From a virus, in the IMG/VR virus record IMGVR_UViG_3300025276_000029, positions 1 to 64,000 of that record: a DNA stretch of 64,000 bases. One strand, written 5' to 3'. Positions within the stretch are counted from its first letter, which is position 1; each line of letters opens with the position of its first letter. The notes under the pieces were generated by a model, which was not told the DNA's origin, searched no databases, and saw only the letters and a program-made list of their open reading frames with translations. Of this stretch, positions 1-34,043 are shown piece after piece. Made by a program: the position numbers and the translations under genes.

Positions 1-181
1 ACTTTATCAATTCATTACCAGGTGCTTCTTTGGAAAATTCTTCGTCACTAATAAATGACCATATTTCTTCACCAACTTTTCTTTTATAAAAAATTAAACC
101 ATCTATATATCTTACTTGATACTCGTGTTTTTCGTTTTTACTTACAGCTTCTTTTAGTAGCTTTTTAATTAAGTGTTTCAT
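1..181 (-). CDS. Hypothetical late protein with IKKLL targeting-like N-terminus (partial)
   Basis: Only the first 60 codons are in the window; the rest lies beyond base 1. The ATG is at 179-181. The protein opens with MKHLIKKLLKEAVSKN, the same basic amphipathic helix ending in L-x-E-[AG] that starts several neighbouring but unrelated proteins. I infer that this segment is a capsid-targeting propeptide cut after the Glu. The part after it (HEYQVRYIDGLIFYKRK, then EEIWSFISDEEF) looks like a small beta-rich domain that I do not recognise. The gene is co-oriented with and directly downstream of the 186-440 gene. Confidence 0.75.
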   Translation of the reverse strand, partial: MKHLIKKLLKEAVSKNEKHEYQVRYIDGLIFYKRKVGEEIWSFISDEEFSKEAPGNELIK

Positions 182-445: not shown

Positions 446-1036
446 TTAATCTAATCTATGTTCAATATAGTTTTTTATTGTTCTGTAATCTAAACCACTA
501 AGCTTGTCATACCCCATTTCTTTAAATTTAGTATCTATCTCTTCCTTTGAAAGACCTTTAAGTGATATAGCTAATTTATCAACTAACTGTCTATATAAGT
601 CTTCTATTACTATTACTGGCATTGTTTCACAACCTAATTTCATAGCCGCTAAAGCACGATGCCTACCTTCTTGGTCTGATTCACCTTCTCTATAGTAACC
701 GATAGGAAACTTACTTCCAGATTCCATAGCTTCTGCATACTTATCAACATTATCCCAGTTAACGTGTGCTGTTGCATCTTCATAACTTAAATTACCAAAA
801 CCCCTAGCTATTGCGTAAATGTATTGTTTAGGACTTATATACTTTAGTGTTTGTTTTTTTAACTTTTCTAACATATGATATACTGGATGGTCAAAACCAC
901 CGAATCTTTCCAATGATTCAAAGTCAAAATACTTACAACAATCACAATTAAAGTCTGGACCTTCTTTGATAAAGTATTCATCAATCATTCTTGACTTTAA
1001 ACCTTCATTTAATAACTTCTTTATAAACTTCTTCAT
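446..1036 (-). CDS. ParB/Srx-fold-like protein with capsid-targeting-like N-terminus
   Basis: 196 residues. The first 13, MKKFIKKLLNEGL, match the recurring basic helix plus L-x-E-G site. A short Cys cluster, CDCC, follows at 31-34. The core around 113-146 contains EGRHRALAAMKLG and then TMPVIVIED. This is the pattern of the ParB/sulfiredoxin-like superfamily (the ParB form is D-G-x-x-R-x-x-A-x-x-x-L-G-x-x-x-V-P), whose members bind or hydrolyse nucleotides or nick DNA. The C-terminal 45 residues are helical. The gene abuts the next one (start at 1036, upstream stop at 1039). A nuclease- or nucleotide-binding role is inferred from the fold pattern only. The N-terminal helix suggests that it is packaged in the head and delivered with the DNA. 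Confidence 0.7.
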   Translation of the reverse strand: MKKFIKKLLNEGLKSRMIDEYFIKEGPDFNCDCCKYFDFESLERFGGFDHPVYHMLEKLKKQTLKYISPKQYIYAIARGFGNLSYEDATAHVNWDNVDKYAEAMESGSKFPIGYYREGESDQEGRHRALAAMKLGCETMPVIVIEDLYRQLVDKLAISLKGLSKEEIDTKFKEMGYDKLSGLDYRTIKNYIEHRLD

Positions 1037-1038
1037 AA

Positions 1039-2190
1039 TTAGTGAATTAATAGGAATGTTTTTTGAACATCCATTCTTTGTGCACCTATATCGGTATCGC
1101 CAGTTGGTAATACAATAACATCGTATTGGAACTTCTCACCTTCTTCTGATGGTAATTCAGATTGGTACTTAAGTCTATCCACAGATACATTGTATGCTTT
1201 TGCTACTAATTGTCTAAGTGTTTCTTTACCACCTTCATCAAATACTGGTAGACCATCTTCACCCTTAACTACGTGTGGACCTTTCCATTTGAATACTTTC
1301 TTAAATAACACCTTTGGCACAATATCTGAATACTTAACCTTTTCAATATCTACTTGAGCTATTTCCTTAGGTGCAGAACCCTTAGAAAAGTTCATGATGA
1401 ACTCATCACTACCTAAGTTAACAAATTTAGCTTGCTTAGTATATGCGTATGACTTAACCTTATAACCGTCTTCTATTAAATCTTTAGTTACTCTTTGAGC
1501 TATTTCGAAATACTTCTTACTGAAGAAATCCCCAGCATCATTCCATCTAATTACTAGTTGGTCAACACTTCCACTTCTTCTACCTTGCCTCTTTAGTTTA
1601 ACAGCTAATGGTTCTAGTTCGTCCATTATCATGTTGTAGTATTCTTCAGGGTCATTCCATAGTAGGTTAAGTCTTCTAATTAACTTAAGTATCTTACCAT
1701 CATTCATTCCGTAGAACCCCTTTCTTGCATAACAAACTAGTTGACATGCACCAGCACCTGGGCAAGTATTAATATGTTTAAATTGTTTTTCACCTTCATC
1801 ATAAATAATACCAGAGATTGCTGGTAGTCCAGTGTTCACTGTGTATTGAGATGCACCTACATCACTCTTCTCCATCTTAGGGTTCTTGTCGAATATAACC
1901 TTTGGTGATGTTGTGATAAGTGTCTTGAATTTATCAACGTCAAGCCCACCTTCTTTATTTATAACTGATTGTATTTGTTTCTTGTGATATATAATGTCCT
2001 TAACACCTCGCTTAGTTCTGTCCTTAGCTGCAGTGTTAATTCTATTTAATTCCTTAGTCATGTCATCGGCTAACGCTTGTGGTGTTACACATTTTGTCTT
2101 AGCGTCTGGGTGGTCTTCAGCACCTTCATTTAATTCTTTGTTCTTGTAAACACTAATTAACGATTCGTTTAGTAATTTTATTATGCTCAT
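1039..2190 (-). CDS. GP88-like (rolling-circle-replication-associated-like) protein
   Basis: 383 residues. It starts MSIIKLLNESL, a shortened form of the shared targeting helix, and a second L-x-E-G site (ELNEGAED) lies at 19-26. The central region has a Cys triad, C143, C149 and C153, in NTCPGAGACQLVCYARKG, followed by VIRWNDAGDFFSKKYFEI near 213-230. This combination resembles the phage 'gene product 88' family, sometimes labelled rolling-circle-replication-associated, whose biochemical role is not settled. A TATTTATA box lies only 3 nt before the ATG. The likely position is first gene of a late transcript continuing into the 446 and 186 genes. The function beyond the family resemblance is unknown. 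Confidence 0.7.
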   Translation of the reverse strand: MSIIKLLNESLISVYKNKELNEGAEDHPDAKTKCVTPQALADDMTKELNRINTAAKDRTKRGVKDIIYHKKQIQSVINKEGGLDVDKFKTLITTSPKVIFDKNPKMEKSDVGASQYTVNTGLPAISGIIYDEGEKQFKHINTCPGAGACQLVCYARKGFYGMNDGKILKLIRRLNLLWNDPEEYYNMIMDELEPLAVKLKRQGRRSGSVDQLVIRWNDAGDFFSKKYFEIAQRVTKDLIEDGYKVKSYAYTKQAKFVNLGSDEFIMNFSKGSAPKEIAQVDIEKVKYSDIVPKVLFKKVFKWKGPHVVKGEDGLPVFDEGGKETLRQLVAKAYNVSVDRLKYQSELPSEEGEKFQYDVIVLPTGDTDIGAQRMDVQKTFLLIH

Positions 2191-2204: not shown

Positions 2205-2984
2205 TTAATCTAAGGAAACGGACTTATCATATGCATCTGTAAGCATATCATCAATATCTTCCATTATGTCGTTTCTTCTAAGTAGTTTAAATACTATGTT
2301 CTCATTAGAGAATTCACCATCTGAATCGAGACCACTTTGTCTCATTGCTTTTATTTTATCCTTAAGCTTCTCAAGCATCTTAACAATATCTTCATCATCA
2401 CATTTTTTGATTTCATTAACTGTCTTGATTATAGTATTATATTTCTTTGTTATTGTTTCCTTGTCAATATCAGCATCAACCTTATTAGGTTCCACAACCC
2501 ACTTATTATTTGTAATTGAATAAACTCCTGTTGAGTGATGTGGTTGGTCTTCTGGTTGTAGATACAATTCTACTTCAAAATCCTTAATTTTAATGTCGTG
2601 CTTCAGGTTCCAAGCTCTAGTCTTAACATCTAGTAAGTCTTTAACCATAGTCTTATCCTTGCCTAAGAATTTCATATCAAATATCATATGAATGTCAGCG
2701 TCAGAATACTTTGACCAATTAAAGTTAGCTAGACTACCTGTAAGTGTTATATTCATAAGTGGAGCTTCTAATTCCAATCCTTTCCAATAATCTGTGGCGA
2801 TTGTTTTAAGAGCTTCTAAGACGTCAGGCTTCATCGTGTTGTTACTTTCCCATATTTCAGGATTAAGTGTCTCATTTATCTTAAAAGTGGAGAAATCAAG
2901 ACTACTTGTAACTTCACCAAGTAACTTTGTGAAGTTATTTTCCTCAAGCCCCTCTCTTAGTAATTTTTTAATTATGTTTTTCAT
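2205..2984 (-). CDS. Pol-beta-type nucleotidyltransferase-like protein with targeting-like N-terminus
   Basis: 259 residues from the ATG at 2984. I chose this start because it exposes MKNIIKKLLREGLEEN, the conserved helix plus L-x-E-G site; a longer reading exists upstream. The motif TGSLANFNWSKYSDADIHM at 82-100 is the classical nucleotidyltransferase signature G-S-x(n)-S-D-x-D. D95 and D97 would be metal ligands, and the acidic pair in DFEVELYLQ (135-143) supplies the third carboxylate. Such enzymes add nucleotides to RNA, proteins or small molecules; MNT-like and CCA-adding enzymes belong here. The substrate is unknown. Given the N-terminal signal and the neighbours, an enzyme injected with the genome, analogous in role (not in fold) to T4 Alt, is a reasonable inference. 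Confidence 0.72.
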   Translation of the reverse strand: MKNIIKKLLREGLEENNFTKLLGEVTSSLDFSTFKINETLNPEIWESNNTMKPDVLEALKTIATDYWKGLELEAPLMNITLTGSLANFNWSKYSDADIHMIFDMKFLGKDKTMVKDLLDVKTRAWNLKHDIKIKDFEVELYLQPEDQPHHSTGVYSITNNKWVVEPNKVDADIDKETITKKYNTIIKTVNEIKKCDDEDIVKMLEKLKDKIKAMRQSGLDSDGEFSNENIVFKLLRRNDIMEDIDDMLTDAYDKSVSLD

Positions 2985-3021: not shown

Positions 3022-4392
3022 TTATATGTTATCAATTATAAAATCTAAAGTAGCGTCCTTCCCTTTCATATCATTAAAATAGCTAGAAGAGATATATTCG
3101 TTTTTTAAATTGTTTTGATTACTGTATGCCTCTTTTTCCCAAGGAAGGTTTTTGTAATTATCGTAGTTTTTTTGTGCTTTTTTATAATCTTTTACTGAAA
3201 CCTCTGTATCATCTTTCCATAGTATAGATTTCCAATCTTCGGATGGTCTAAGTTCACCATTTGTTATTTGTTTAACATGTGTTAATTCGTGTACCAATGC
3301 ACCTATTATCATTCTATAACCTTGGTCTGGATTATAATGTAATGTGAATTTACCTTTGTTCAAAGATGCATCACTAAGTACAACATCACCGATTTGTGTG
3401 TTAGAAGACTTTTTCTTTACTACTATTTTATTAGGTTTGAATTTTAATTTATCTTGCATAAATTCAATAACAGAATCAATTAAAAGTTTTTCATATTTTT
3501 TAATTTCAAGACCTTCTCTTATTAGTTTTTTAATTAAACGTTTAGTTTTAGTAGGTTTACTAAAACTTTCCTCTATATCTGAACTATCATCTTTGTTAAA
3601 GTTCCAAACTCCTGAAAAACCTGAAAAGTAATAAGTTGTGTTTTTAAGTGTTTCCACTACGAATTTAATTCCATTAAATATTTTACGCCCCCAACTTATA
3701 AATGCACCTATACCAGTAACACCGTTTAGTAAACTTCCTAACCCAGTTACTAATGTTTTTTTTAAACCGTCGAATATGTTATCATCCAATAGATTTGTTA
3801 AAAAATCCTTACTCATTTCTGCTATCGGTGTTGTTAAAATATTTAAACCACCTTCACCAATTTTATCTATTACGTATTTTATAGATAAGGCCATACCAGT
3901 AAGACTTACAGCTGTTTTCCACCCACCATAACCTTTTATTTTTATGAAACTATCTTCAAAAAATTTTATTACTTTAGTTATACCTTTGGCAATTTTATCC
4001 AGACCAAGCTTTTCTGCAGATTCTTTTACATTTTTTAAGAATTCTTCTATTTTTTCTTTCCCTTTATTAACAATTTTAACTTCAAGAGATTTAACCCAAT
4101 TTTCAATATTACCTGGGGTACTTACCGCTTCCTTAAATTTTTTCATCAACAGCATAAGGTCCTTAGGGAATGATTTTATATCATCCCAAAATCCTTCCAT
4201 TAATAGATATTCCTCGATAACTAATCTTTTTTCTTCTACACTACTATTTTCGTTAATATACCCACTAATACCTAATACTTTAGTTTTATATTCATAATCA
4301 AATATATTTGGCATTCCCTCACTTAAATAAGGATTAAGTCTAGTTATTAATCCATCATTAAGTGCTAAGTGATTTATTATTTCTTTATTCAT
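3022..4392 (-). CDS. Putative processed polyprotein: membrane-active N-terminal part plus zincin metallopeptidase
   Basis: 456 residues. The C-terminal third has HELTH at 368-372, the HExxH zinc motif, and a plausible third ligand Glu in WEKEAYSN (about 418-425), so it is a gluzincin-like peptidase domain. It is preceded at 285-294 by RLIKKLIREG, the same helix plus cleavage signal that starts other proteins in this window, here internal. Two more [L]-x-E-G sites lie near the N-terminus (LSEG 23-26, LMEG 64-67). Residues 90-270 hold amphipathic and hydrophobic helices. I infer a precursor cut by the prohead protease into a helical and membrane-seeking piece and a free peptidase. A TATTTATA box lies upstream at 4434-4441. 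The substrate is unknown. Confidence 0.7.
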   Translation of the reverse strand: MNKEIINHLALNDGLITRLNPYLSEGMPNIFDYEYKTKVLGISGYINENSSVEEKRLVIEEYLLMEGFWDDIKSFPKDLMLLMKKFKEAVSTPGNIENWVKSLEVKIVNKGKEKIEEFLKNVKESAEKLGLDKIAKGITKVIKFFEDSFIKIKGYGGWKTAVSLTGMALSIKYVIDKIGEGGLNILTTPIAEMSKDFLTNLLDDNIFDGLKKTLVTGLGSLLNGVTGIGAFISWGRKIFNGIKFVVETLKNTTYYFSGFSGVWNFNKDDSSDIEESFSKPTKTKRLIKKLIREGLEIKKYEKLLIDSVIEFMQDKLKFKPNKIVVKKKSSNTQIGDVVLSDASLNKGKFTLHYNPDQGYRMIIGALVHELTHVKQITNGELRPSEDWKSILWKDDTEVSVKDYKKAQKNYDNYKNLPWEKEAYSNQNNLKNEYISSSYFNDMKGKDATLDFIIDNI

Positions 4393-8935: not shown

Positions 8936-9673
8936 TTATTTCTTAGTGATAATATCATCTATTATACCATATTCTAAAGCTTCCTTAGCGTTAAGCCAAT
9001 TATCTCTTTCGCAATCTTCAAGAACTGTTTTGATATCCTTATCAGTATAATCTGCAAGCATACCAAATAAGGTTTGATTATACTTCTCAGCTTCTGCAAT
9101 ACTAATCTTCATGTCTTTAACGTGACCTTGAGCACCACCACTAACTTGGTGAAGCATAACCCTAGAGTTTGGTAGCGCAAATCTTTTACCTTTAGTTCCG
9201 TTACCTAATAAAATAGAACCCATTGACGCTGCCATACCAGTATTAACTGTTACAATATCAGACTCAATATAGTTCATTACATCTACCATGCTTAGACCGC
9301 TTTTAACGCTCCCTCCTGGACTATCTACGTGCATCCTAATGTCAGACACCTCTAGGTTGTCTAAGAACATTAATTGAGCACATACAACAGTTGACATTTG
9401 GTCGTTAACTGGTCCAGCAACCCAAAGTATTCTATCCATCATTTGTCTTGAGAAGATATCCATTTGGGTTACTCTTAATTCTCTTTCTTCAAGAATATAT
9501 GGTGTCATTGACCCATTAGGCGAGGTACTACCTACCACATTAACGTTATCGTATAATGACGTTTGTAATTTATCCCAATAGTGAAATTGCATTCCACTAA
9601 TCCCCATATGGTTCATTGCATAGTTCTTAAACTCACCATAGTAGTCTGTATTTGTATTTATGTAGTTTTCCAT
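8936..9673 (-). CDS. clpP: ClpP-family serine protease
   Basis: 245 residues. The ClpP core runs from about 58 to 240: the oxyanion region VDSPGGSVKSGLSM (117-130), nucleophile Ser150 in NTGMAASMGSI, His175 in VMLHQ, and Asp224 in ERDNWLNAKEA. The triad is thus complete, and the order and spacing are those of ClpP. An extra 50-60 residues at the N-terminus (MENYINTNTDYYGEF...) replace the normal propeptide and loop region. A phage ClpP can act as a maturation protease or can redirect host ClpX-type unfoldases. Here it lies about 1 kb from a phage tmRNA, so a role in degrading tagged proteins is an attractive inference. Confidence 0.9.
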   Translation of the reverse strand: MENYINTNTDYYGEFKNYAMNHMGISGMQFHYWDKLQTSLYDNVNVVGSTSPNGSMTPYILEERELRVTQMDIFSRQMMDRILWVAGPVNDQMSTVVCAQLMFLDNLEVSDIRMHVDSPGGSVKSGLSMVDVMNYIESDIVTVNTGMAASMGSILLGNGTKGKRFALPNSRVMLHQVSGGAQGHVKDMKISIAEAEKYNQTLFGMLADYTDKDIKTVLEDCERDNWLNAKEALEYGIIDDIITKK

Positions 9674-14707: not shown

Positions 14708-15004
14708 TTAAAATTTAGTAAATATTTTCTGTAAAAACAATTTAACTTTCTGACCAAATGTTTTTTTTATTATTATAACCTTACTTGGGTTTTTTTTAAC
14801 AATATTACCTAACCCAGACTTAAGTTCGTTTATATATAAACCTTTCTTTAGTTCTACGTTTTGTCTAATTCCCTTTATGTCGTTTTGAACAGCGTCAATG
14901 GTTTCAACTCTTTCTATATTCTCCTCACCATCTAATTCTTTTATAAACTTTTTAGTTTGTCGATTAGCTTTGTCTAATATATCTTGTACTGTTAAATCTT
15001 TCAT
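14708..15004 (-). CDS. Hypothetical basic helical protein, 98 residues
   Basis: From ATG 15004: MKDLTVQDILDKANRQTKKF. It is helical and ends in a strongly basic segment (VIIIKKTFGQKVKLFLQKIF). A TATTTATT late-like box lies about 45 nt upstream. The basic amphipathic end could bind membrane or DNA. It is in an operon with the 14473 gene. The function is unknown. Confidence 0.55.
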   Translation of the reverse strand: MKDLTVQDILDKANRQTKKFIKELDGEENIERVETIDAVQNDIKGIRQNVELKKGLYINELKSGLGNIVKKNPSKVIIIKKTFGQKVKLFLQKIFTKF

Positions 15005-15108
15005 TATTACTAATTTAGGTAAAATACACCTATTTGTAAACACTATTCCTTTAATAAATATTTACATACTGATATATATTCACTATATTTAAATAAATTA
15101 TATATATT

Positions 15109-15450
15109 ATGACAAATATTTTTATTTATTCATTCATTGTATACGGAGTATGCAATATACTTATTTGGGGTAGTAACTTCAAATGGTGGAGAAGTTTTTT
15201 ATCTAACTTTGGTGAAGGTGATTACAGTCTACATAAGTTATTCACATGTTTTATGTGTTTACCTACTTGGATTGGCGCTGGACTTAGTGCGTTATCAATT
15301 TATCTTGGTGATGGGTCTTTAGCTATTACAAACCATTTAGGTTTTGATAATATTGCTATTATCCTTTTATTAGATGGTGTGTTTGCTTCAGGTATTGTTT
15401 GGTGTATTAACACTGTTCAAGAATACTTTGAAAATAAAACTAACGATTAA
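15109..15450 (+). CDS. Membrane protein with CxxC loop (DUF1360-like)
   Basis: 113 residues with about three membrane segments: 2-20 (NIFIYSFIVYGVCNILIWG), 50-68 (LPTWIGAGLSALSIYL) and 82-103 (NIAIILLLDGVFASGIVWCI). C47 and C50 in LHKLFTCFMCLPTWIGA precede the second helix. This arrangement is seen in small membrane proteins related to DUF1360, found in phages and bacteria; their function is unknown. It is on the plus strand, opposite to its neighbours, and its 3' end overlaps the antisense sigma-like fragment at 15440-15562. Confidence 0.7.
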   Translation: MTNIFIYSFIVYGVCNILIWGSNFKWWRSFLSNFGEGDYSLHKLFTCFMCLPTWIGAGLSALSIYLGDGSLAITNHLGFDNIAIILLLDGVFASGIVWCINTVQEYFENKTND

Positions 15451-15562
15451 GGTGTTTAAACTTTTCTTTTAATATCTTTCTAACTCGGAAAAGATATACT
15501 TTAACTTGGGTCTCATTGGGACCCATTTTAGTTCCTATCTCTTCGTAACTATTACTTTTCAA
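15440..15562 (-). pseudogene. Orphan sigma-70 region 4 (ECF-like) fragment, 40 codons
   Basis: The minus-strand frame from TTG 15562 to TAG 15440 reads SNSYEEIGTKMGPNETQVK, then VYLFRVRKILKEKFKHL. This is the DNA-binding region 4.2 pattern of ECF sigma factors (S-Y-x-E-I-x-x-x-[ML]-x-x-x-x-x-x-V-K-x-x-L-x-R-x-R-x-x-L). There is an in-frame stop right before the TTG and no ATG, so it is either a decayed remnant or a tiny region-4-only protein. It lies after the terminator of the 15651 gene, which argues for a remnant. A complete RpoD-like factor exists at 27123-27968 but is not of ECF type. Confidence 0.55.
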
Positions 15563-15596
15563 CTAAGGTAATAAAAAATAACCAGTAAAACAAAAA

Positions 15597-15616
15597 AAAC
15601 TTCAATTAAGAAGTTT
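15597..15616 (-). terminator. Rho-independent terminator
   Basis: AAACTTCTTAATTGAAGTTT with eight or more U following on the minus strand. It ends the 15651-16271 gene. Confidence 0.75.
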
Positions 15617-15650
15617 TAGTGGTGTAGATATTATATGTTTGGTGATTAAA

Positions 15651-16271
15651 TTAAGATTGTCCGAATTTCGATTCTTCACATACTGGACATACTTCGTTTT
15701 CGTCACATTTACAAACAACGTTACTTGAGTGTTCTTCTAGTATAATCTTTTCACTCTTGGGCGGTAGTTCTATCTCTTGACCTTTAATCTTTGTAGTGTT
15801 AGATTCTGTCGTATCAATTGGCCCATCTACTTTATCTTCAGGTTCATTATTAAGACTTTCTTTAACTTCATTAAATTCTATTTCTATATCTTCATTTAAT
15901 GTAGGTAGTTTTTCTAATTCACTAAATCTAAACTTAAGTGTACTTAATTTTTTTAATGAACTTTTCTTAAAAACTTCTTGTAGTTCCTTTACTTTAACTT
16001 TAAATAGTTCTTCTTTATTTTCCTTTTCTATATTAATAGTGATAATACCTTCAACATACTCTAATAAGTCGTCAAAAGTTACTTTCTCTTTTTCAGTGTA
16101 AAACATGTAGTAGTTTTTACCTTCTTCGACTAGTTCTTTTCTGATTATATCAGATTCTGGCACCGTCCAACCATCTTTAAATACAGCGTCTACGACCTGT
16201 AGACCTTGAATGTACCTAATACCTACAATGTAGGGTTGTAGTGAGTCTAGTTTGTTTTGTATTTCGCTCAT
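15651..16271 (-). CDS. Hypothetical protein with C-terminal Cys cluster
   Basis: 206 residues. The N-terminal 90 residues are an alpha/beta domain (SLQPYIVGIRYIQGLQVVDA and WTVPESDIIRKELVEEGKN). Then comes a Glu/Lys-rich helical stretch, a disordered acidic linker around 140-170, and a terminal CKCDENEVCPVC (about 189-200) that looks like a zinc knuckle. Proteins of this general plan occur in T4-like phages of marine hosts without an assigned role. A single-strand nucleic acid or protein-adaptor function would fit the zinc tail. This is not demonstrated. Confidence 0.65.
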   Translation of the reverse strand: MSEIQNKLDSLQPYIVGIRYIQGLQVVDAVFKDGWTVPESDIIRKELVEEGKNYYMFYTEKEKVTFDDLLEYVEGIITINIEKENKEELFKVKVKELQEVFKKSSLKKLSTLKFRFSELEKLPTLNEDIEIEFNEVKESLNNEPEDKVDGPIDTTESNTTKIKGQEIELPPKSEKIILEEHSSNVVCKCDENEVCPVCEESKFGQS

Positions 16272-16283
16272 AAAACTTTATTA

Positions 16284-16496
16284 TTACATATAAACACCAC
16301 TAATTATTGATGTTAGTATATATGAAATGGACATACTCAATATCCATAATGAACTGTCGTCTATTTTGTACTTTTGAGGGTTGTCGGAATCTGACTTAAC
16401 CCATGCTTGTCCAAAATAATATAAATGTCTAGTCACATTAAGTGAAGACATCATTAAGACTATTAACAGTAGTTTGTTGAGTATATCCATCCACAT
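16284..16496 (-). CDS. Small two-helix membrane protein
   Basis: About 70 residues. MDILNKLLLIVLMMSSLNVT forms the first membrane segment, a soluble loop with a WVKSDSDNPQKYKIDD stretch follows, and SLWILSMSISYILTSIISGV is the second. The ATG at 16490 is as likely as that at 16496. Both ends lie on the same side of the membrane. It sits between the H1-like gene and the 15651 gene in one operon. The function is unknown. Confidence 0.55.
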   Translation of the reverse strand: MWMDILNKLLLIVLMMSSLNVTRHLYYFGQAWVKSDSDNPQKYKIDDSSLWILSMSISYILTSIISGVYM

Positions 16497-31573: not shown

Positions 31574-32389
31574 TTATATATTTGTTAATATTTCAGAACC
31601 ATTATCAATGTCGTTTATCGAATCTATTTTAAATTGGTAAAAACCGTAATCGGTTTCGACATCATGTTCTTCATATGTCTTAGTTTCAACGTCCCACCAT
31701 AAGAAACCATGCTTACCAATCTTCTCGCCAAAATTCTGTTGAATAAGTGAACTAGGCATTACGATAGGTATACCTTTAAATCTCAAGTCCTGACGTTTAT
31801 GTATGTCACCACACATGACAATATCATTACCTTCGAATATATCAAGACTATGTCCATGTTCAATTTCATAACCTACATCAGTTGTTGAGCCAATAAGTGG
31901 TCCGTGGAATAATCCGATATATGTCTTATCATCTCCATGGTCAATCCTAGCATCTTCAATATTTGGTCTGTCACTACCCGTTATGATGGAATAGACATCC
32001 CACACAACGTTATTATCAACATAGCACCCAGTTTCAGTATAGTATTGTATCTTTAACTCAGGAAGTAATTGAACCATAGGTGTGATACTATCAACCCTAT
32101 CCTTATTGTTCTCAAGTAAGTCATGATTACCTGGAATAATTACAACTGGTGCTATTTTATCTAGTTTCCTAAGAAACCAAGTACCAAGTATAAGTAACTC
32201 ATTAGAAATGGTTATCTTCTGGTGTACGTAATCTCCTGCTATAACGATTCTAACCTCTTCTCTATTGTATGGTTCCACTAGTACCCTTATCTGCTTTAAG
32301 AACGTCTTAAAAGCCGCCCCATATTCCTCATGCATTCTGAATGTTCTGATGTGGATATCAGCTATATGTATTATTTTCTTAATTTCCAT
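31574..32389 (-). CDS. SbcD/Mre11-like nuclease (T4 gp47-like)
   Basis: 271 residues. The metallophosphoesterase metal motifs are in order: DIHIR (D11, H13), GDYVHQK near 53, GNHDLLEN near 88, HGPL near 157 and CGDIHKRQ near 197. This is the catalytic half of the Mre11 fold without the long C-terminal region of bacterial SbcD, as in T4 gp47. With gp46 it processes double-strand ends and recombination intermediates. It lies two bases from the repeat protein and four from the PD-(D/E)XK nuclease gene, in a tight recombination operon. Confidence 0.93.
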   Translation of the reverse strand: MEIKKIIHIADIHIRTFRMHEEYGAAFKTFLKQIRVLVEPYNREEVRIVIAGDYVHQKITISNELLILGTWFLRKLDKIAPVVIIPGNHDLLENNKDRVDSITPMVQLLPELKIQYYTETGCYVDNNVVWDVYSIITGSDRPNIEDARIDHGDDKTYIGLFHGPLIGSTTDVGYEIEHGHSLDIFEGNDIVMCGDIHKRQDLRFKGIPIVMPSSLIQQNFGEKIGKHGFLWWDVETKTYEEHDVETDYGFYQFKIDSINDIDNGSEILTNI

Positions 32390-33407: not shown

Positions 33408-34043
33408 ATGAAAATTTTAATAAAAAAATTACTTAGAGAAGGATTGTTGGATGAAGCTGCGTTAACGACTTCGAGCCTTCCTGAAGGTACAGGGTTGTTT
33501 GCTAAAGAGCAGAATAGTAATGAGTTAGTATTATTTAACCCTAGTACGAAACAAGCATACGCAATTATTAATTTTGTATATAACCCTAGTCAGTCAGACT
33601 TTCATTATGTCATAGCAGTTGCCGCTGAAAAGGGTTACGGACCACTTATTTATGAGTTAGCTATGATGTATGTTGCGAGTAAACATAATAACCTGCTAAC
33701 ACCAACTAGAGGTGGTGAAATTAGAAGTAAAGCTTTTAACGTTTGGGAGAAAATGTATAATAGAGAAGATGTTATTAAAAAAACATTACAACCGACTGAT
33801 AAAAACTTTAACTATGATATTTTATTTCCAACTAGCGAAGTTTCGAACGATGAAAGACAAGAAGCTTTTGACGAGTTGTCGGGTAATGAAAAAAAGGATT
33901 TAATTGTATTTAACTCAGGATATACTAAAGAACCAAGTAAAGGGTATTATGACTTATTGAGAATTGCACAAGAATACGGTGAAGATGTTTATAATTTAGC
34001 TTCTGAAGCTGGTGATAATTTATGGTCAATATCTTATGATTAA
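33408..34043 (+). CDS. GNAT-like protein with capsid-targeting-like N-terminus
   Basis: 211 residues. It begins MKILIKKLLREGLLDEAALT, the strongest form of the shared helix plus L-x-E-G site. The region HYVIAVAAEKGYGPLIYELA at about 67-86, followed by MMYVASKHNNLLTPTRGGEI and SKAFNVWEKMYNR, looks like the acetyl-CoA-binding strand-loop-helix of GNAT acetyltransferases, with [RQ]-x-x-G-x-[GA] replaced by EKGYGP. The C-terminus adds about 80 helical residues. It has its own late box and sits reversed within the replication genes (4-nt tail-to-tail overlap with the primase gene). It is a mobile late cassette, and its substrate is unknown. Confidence 0.7.
   Translation: MKILIKKLLREGLLDEAALTTSSLPEGTGLFAKEQNSNELVLFNPSTKQAYAIINFVYNPSQSDFHYVIAVAAEKGYGPLIYELAMMYVASKHNNLLTPTRGGEIRSKAFNVWEKMYNREDVIKKTLQPTDKNFNYDILFPTSEVSNDERQEAFDELSGNEKKDLIVFNSGYTKEPSKGYYDLLRIAQEYGEDVYNLASEAGDNLWSISYD

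Follow-up and report, generated by a model that had tools for sequence, protein, structure and literature searches.

The prohead protease of bacteriophage T4, gp21, cleaves after L/I-x-E and cuts the core proteins gp22, gp67 and gp68 into several fragments (PMC9026906), and the capsid protein gp23 sheds its first 65 residues (PMC9958956). In the giant phage SPN3US, the protease gp245 acts at several Glu sites per chain, and long propeptides are cut into pieces (PMC10052503). Polyvalent proteins of phages and plasmids are injected, multidomain products with zincin-like metallopeptidase and ADP-ribosyltransferase domains, for which processing by their own metallopeptidase has been proposed (PMC5512222). 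The present study concerns a 456-residue open reading frame (ORF) at 3022..4392 on the minus strand of the window, a stretch of 64,000 nucleotides (positions 1 to 64,000) from the viral record IMGVR_UViG_3300025276_000029. That record, a viral contig of 71,552 bp, comes from a marine T4-like phage, its baseplate wedge proteins being of the T4 type, and contains the ORF as a single copy. Its translation joins an N-terminal helical module (N-module) to a zinc peptidase through an internal copy of a leader that is otherwise N-terminal. With reasonable though not strong confidence, the fusion is best read as a leader-targeted capsid-cargo polyprotein that is cut by the prohead protease.

In such a polyprotein, the N-terminal propeptide would act together with the leader at the join to lodge the chain in the core of the prohead. 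Once activated, a gp21-type (S77) prohead protease would cut after the Glu of the LxE sites at E25, E48, E66 and E293. These cuts would remove the first 66 residues and, at E293|G294, part the N-module from the zinc peptidase, while a possible extra cut at E275|S276 would excise the leader. Both products would then remain inside the head until they pass into the host together with the DNA. The peptidase might be freed only during maturation, and conceivably has no activity before the cut. By analogy with T4, from which we infer packaging, cleavage and ejection into the host, a head-maturation step is the likeliest mechanism.

Turning to T4 itself, the capsid targeting of IPII and IPIII offers a likeness in the form of a short leader ending in L/I-x-E, with a protease of the same kind in relatives. 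In T4 each leader heads a single protein, whereas the window leader lies inside the chain between two units; the T4 leader also differs from that of the window clade, which is an IKKLLRE helix with Glu at position 11. A leader of about ten residues at the protein N-terminus is accordingly a feature of the neighbours and free-standing relatives and not of the fusion. L/I-x-E is present at the proposed fusion cut (I-R-E|G), as well as at LSE|G, INE|N and LME|G.

Layout of the fusion and its internal leader

All parts of the fusion lie on the minus strand. The N-terminal propeptide (residues 1-66, 4195..4392) contains three LxE sites that are conserved in an alignment of seven family members. Site A is LSE|G (residues 23-26, 4315..4326), site B is INE|N (residues 46-49, 4246..4257) and site C is LME|G (residues 64-67, 4192..4203). 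The Glu is kept in 6/7 members at A, 7/7 at B and 6/7 at C, and these residues rank among the best conserved features of the N-module family; most of the N-module is without LxE sites. The N-module proper (residues 67-272, 3577..4194) is delimited by tblastn and profile matches and appears helical in a low-confidence model. It is followed by a linker (residues 273-284, 3541..3576) that opens with a further LxE site, IEE|S at residues 273-276, as the possible second cut. Next comes the internal leader RLIKKLIRE (residues 285-293, 3514..3540), recognised by its leader profile score, with I-R-E|G at residues 291-294 and the proposed cut after E293. The remainder is the zinc peptidase unit (residues 294-456, 3025..3513; phrog_16532 / phrog_10499), in which HELTH (residues 368-372, 3277..3291) is the putative zinc-binding and catalytic motif. 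A preliminary description made from the DNA alone had pointed to LSEG at 23-26, LMEG at 64-67, RLIKKLIREG at 285-294 and HELTH, and all four were confirmed; sites B and IEE|S had escaped it.

Judged from sequence statistics, the motif is present in the fusion protein beyond chance. In shuffles of the protein the strict motif [IVLF]KK[ILR][ILVF]xE[GAS] has P = 0.002, and [LI]xEG is found 4 times against 0.47 expected. With a profile built from N-terminal leaders, the internal site scores 24.3 bits and the runner-up 2.6 bits, the internal motif being a near-perfect copy of the N-terminal leader M-x3-IKKLLRE|GL. A chance motif was ruled out by shuffles, reversed sequences and control proteomes. 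An internal translation start at the peptidase was also ruled out: residues 247 to 311 contain no in-frame ATG, GTG or TTG, and initiation within the frame thus cannot account for the leader. The same observation bears on the notion that two neighbouring genes were joined artificially, through faulty assembly or sequencing. Although the exact fusion comes from one metagenomic contig, correcting one stop codon would not give back an independent gene where no start codon lies near the leader, and the N-module is joined through a leader in other contigs too. An error of this kind is scarcely credible.

Separate genes and exchanged partners

The preliminary description proposed an in-frame fusion of two units, parted by a processing signal, and suggested looking for the halves as separate genes in relatives. 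This proposal holds up well, since both halves were found alone and the first half also with other partners. The peptidase half stands by itself in six contigs (L002-L007) at 82-85% identity, with an N-terminal leader of its own, MQYLFEF[FV]KE|D, and homology to the fusion begins at that leader. Homologues lacking the internal Glu were to speak against the proposal. The Glu is in fact kept at the aligned position, but its context is not, reading F/V-K-E|D after F in place of L-I-R-E|G.

For the N-half, first searches of viral contigs and phages gave no relatives. Clear relatives were obtained by tblastn against leader-bearing contigs, which rules out the N-half as an orphan; proteins of about 620 residues that gave weak profile matches to positions 6-68 were set aside. 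The N-half is a gene of its own in five contigs (G016, G019, G027, G032 and G024). In contig L188 its gene is flanked by those of a T4-type portal and an S77 protease, the interval in which T4 has its gp67 and gp68 genes. The resemblance to gp22, gp67 and gp68 lies in gp21 cutting into fragments and in this portal-gp21 interval. Unlike these T4 proteins, the N-module has an enzyme behind it.

The partner of the N-module also changes. At the same syntenic locus in contig G015, it is joined to a nucleotidyltransferase-like unit through the junction NIVKTLLKE|N, and this unit is the separate next gene in the window. The two loci are readily compared, as 64 window ORFs have relatives in G015 in largely the same order. 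In contigs L189 and L190 the N-module is joined to a third domain via LKKLIKE|Q.

Leaders across clades and at internal positions

The neighbours of the fusion are themselves leader-bearing. On the minus strand, the nucleotidyltransferase-like cargo gene (2205..2984) starts with MKNIIKKLLRE|GL, a GP88-family protein (1039..2190) with the leader-like MSIIKLLNE|S, a ParB-like protein (446..1036) with MKKFIKKLLNE|GL, and an ORF truncated by the window edge (1..181) with MKHLIKKLLKE|A. A distant ORF on the plus strand (33408..34043) has MKILIKKLLRE|GL. A scan of viral contigs returned 43 stretches that encode IKKLLREGL, which begins four residues past the ATG in nearly all of them and belongs to many unrelated proteins. 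One leader-bearing relative, from L029, matches the ART-PolyVal ADP-ribosyltransferase family.

Leader type follows clade. The window clade uses IKKLLRE, and the sister clade with the free-standing peptidase uses MKxLNEFLNE. In each clade the peptidase wears the local type, internally in the window and N-terminally in its relatives. Since the peptidase bears the leader type of its own clade, these sequences argue that the window genome gained or retained its internal leader for its own use, and not as a mere relic carried over from the other clade.

Internal leaders also recur. In contigs of the IKKLLRE leader type, 16 internal sites score at least 14 bits, whereas shuffles gave 1.75, reversed sequences 1, and control proteomes of another leader type none; two of the 16 are the same protein in near-identical contigs. 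A 453-residue ORF of contig G023 (the same as L047 5432-6793, minus strand) adjoins the capsid gene and begins with a leader that is repeated exactly inside the protein, at 166; no clear relative was found for either of its halves. A second xE[SNGAQ] lies within 22 residues ahead of most internal leaders, compared with 32% in random segments. One weak internal site each in G015 and G011 was treated as probable chance, as were IKKILPEA at 443 of a 735-residue ORF and IKQGLREA at 123 of a 279-residue ORF, both in G033.

When leader-bearing proteins were surveyed by their mature part alone, 17 fusion families emerged. An LxE lies within four residues of the junction in 11/17, compared with 18% of control windows (p = 3e-5); family representatives and window widths were picked after the data had been seen, so the p-values are approximate. 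Several of these families retain the cut site without the helix, and in 5/17 the LxE has been lost from the junction when up to seven residues are considered.

Those losses would be expected if the internal leader were a relic, left when adjacent leader genes fused by stop loss to give an uncut two-domain head protein. Neighbouring leader genes are the norm here, and the fused leader of L189 and L190 retains its Met (MKKSDLKKLIKE), both of which fit such an origin. Against this, the motif is near-perfect in the window and in G023, the junction LxE is retained above control, and the leader is of the local clade's type. We regard a relic as unlikely.

Some relatives carry the leader at their extreme C-terminus, for example as IKKLIRE|NLGF-stop or IKRLLRE|GLNY-stop. 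The ORFs concerned are at 31957-32286 (minus) and 14715-16301 (plus) in G033, 83547-83972 (plus) in G016 and 2365-2673 (plus) in L196. Judging from these copies, some proteins may need no more than targeting. In a broader form, the leader would be a targeting helix only, effective at any position, and its internal copies need not be cut. It is consistent with this idea that the residues for targeting and processing of T4 IPIII partly differ, with Asp at position 10 still allowing targeting (PMC9026906). It is opposed by the fusions that keep the LxE and not the helix, and by the propeptide sites of the N-module, which are conserved without a helix. As an account of the internal copies, targeting alone is decidedly unlikely.

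The C-terminal leader in several cases follows a domain ending in ...EFPDYYDRLxKME. In other contigs this domain continues through the leader into different C-terminal domains.

Under the polyprotein reading, cargo boundaries in the window clade would be optional, an internal leader serving as the alternative to a stop followed by a start, and the tag probably lets the head-maturation protease act in place of a stop codon. More generally, the capsid leader could be a portable, largely position-independent and clade-specific tag that serves as both address and cut site, with cargo genes free to fuse, the prohead protease separating their products, and the recurrent N-module acting as a carrier for exchangeable C-terminal cargo. 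We consider this generalisation an even proposition. A search of open-licence papers found no published account of internal leaders marking cargo boundaries, or of head polyproteins, in T4-like phages.

A few further observations concern related phages and the window. Flavobacterium phage immuto, which has strain LMO8 as its host and whose record annotates gp20, a prohead protease and gp23, has leader candidates such as MENFDLKKFLVE|N and is without strong internal leaders. The DNA ligase of Tenacibaculum phage pT24 (L008 961-3771, plus strand) holds the stretch INE|SKGDQEEYQKFF, which matches MKKLTNFINE|AEKSKKQKEYQEFF, the N-terminal sequence of a protein with a leader in the sister clade. 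The window also encodes a ClpP-like protease (8936-9673, minus strand; Pfam E = 1e-58) that is 75% identical in the syntenic G015.

Head protease, peptidase and proposed packaged cargo

Among 31 related contigs, Peptidase_S77 is present in 18 and the Gp23 capsid protein in 20. At residues 58-61, LL[TSN]E|[AST] is conserved in capsid proteins of the IKKLLRE clade (T follows the Glu in 1/12), close to the position at which T4 gp23 loses its first 65 residues. The sister-clade leader MKxLNEFLNE|A matches the start of IPII and IPIII as read from the T4 record, MKTYQEFIAE|A. Both observations bear on a different role for the leader, unrelated to the head, such as an amphipathic helix that binds a membrane or host factor and is carried by early proteins. 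By its sequence IKKLLRE would be amphipathic and basic, it is found on non-structural enzymes, and the window record is without head genes. Yet a site of this kind is also present in the capsid protein, the sister-clade leader resembles a T4 capsid targeting sequence, an N-module gene occupies the portal-protease interval and the double-leader gene of G023 adjoins the capsid gene. A role away from the head is therefore very improbable.

Several results weigh against a leader-targeted polyprotein. S77 protease, portal and Gp23 had no match in the 71.5-kb window record or in the syntenic G015; both look like fragments, and the protease is thus seen only in other relatives. The fusion lacks the IKKLLRE helix at its own N-terminus, and its exact combination of N-module and peptidase was found in one contig. 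The site of the solo peptidase, FxKE|D, with F before and D after K-E, is not a canonical T4 site. Lastly, a cut at the C-terminal leaders would free only three or four residues.

In contig G011, no S77 protease or T4-type portal was found. A 193-residue ORF of this contig (88478-89059, minus strand) has a partial Gp23 match with E about 1e-15 and lies far from other head genes.

The other described systems compare less directly. SPN3US is alike in having multiple Glu sites per chain. Its protease has AxE specificity, however, and no junction of two cargo domains is among the reported cuts, which trim propeptides at the N-terminus and, in the protease itself, at the C-terminus. Polyvalent proteins are alike in combining several domains with a zincin-like metallopeptidase, whereas the sites of the fusion protein fit the prohead protease instead. 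Neither MPTase-PolyVal nor ART-PolyVal was matched in the fusion protein, for which only weak Pfam matches were obtained.

HExxH is kept in all peptidase relatives, including those of Tenacibaculum phage pT24 and Caulobacter phage Cr30. The peptidase unit matches Pfam DUF6782 with E = 0.0048, below the family cut-off, and its PHROG matches are of unknown function. An AF2 model has a mean predicted local distance difference test (pLDDT) score of 59.5, with values under 50 over residues 250-296, the stretch containing the leader. At low confidence it places three strands ahead of a helix (359-377) that bears HELTH. A Foldseek search of the PDB gave a best E of 0.98 and no usable fold identification, and a search of solved structures by sequence gave nothing convincing. 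The N-part had earlier been labelled membrane-active, which is poorly borne out: peak 19-residue hydropathy is 1.55 in the fusion protein (0.74-2.22 in relatives), the cut-off in common use for membrane segments is 1.6, and there is no fold match.

If the polyprotein reading is true, one sequence tag would flag which of the numerous uncharacterised proteins of the T4-like and jumbo phages in this group are packaged in the head and injected, proteins that are otherwise hard to recognise. It would also provide a simple route for the building and reshuffling of injected cargo, in which a stop codon is lost, the tag is kept and the head protease restores the boundary.
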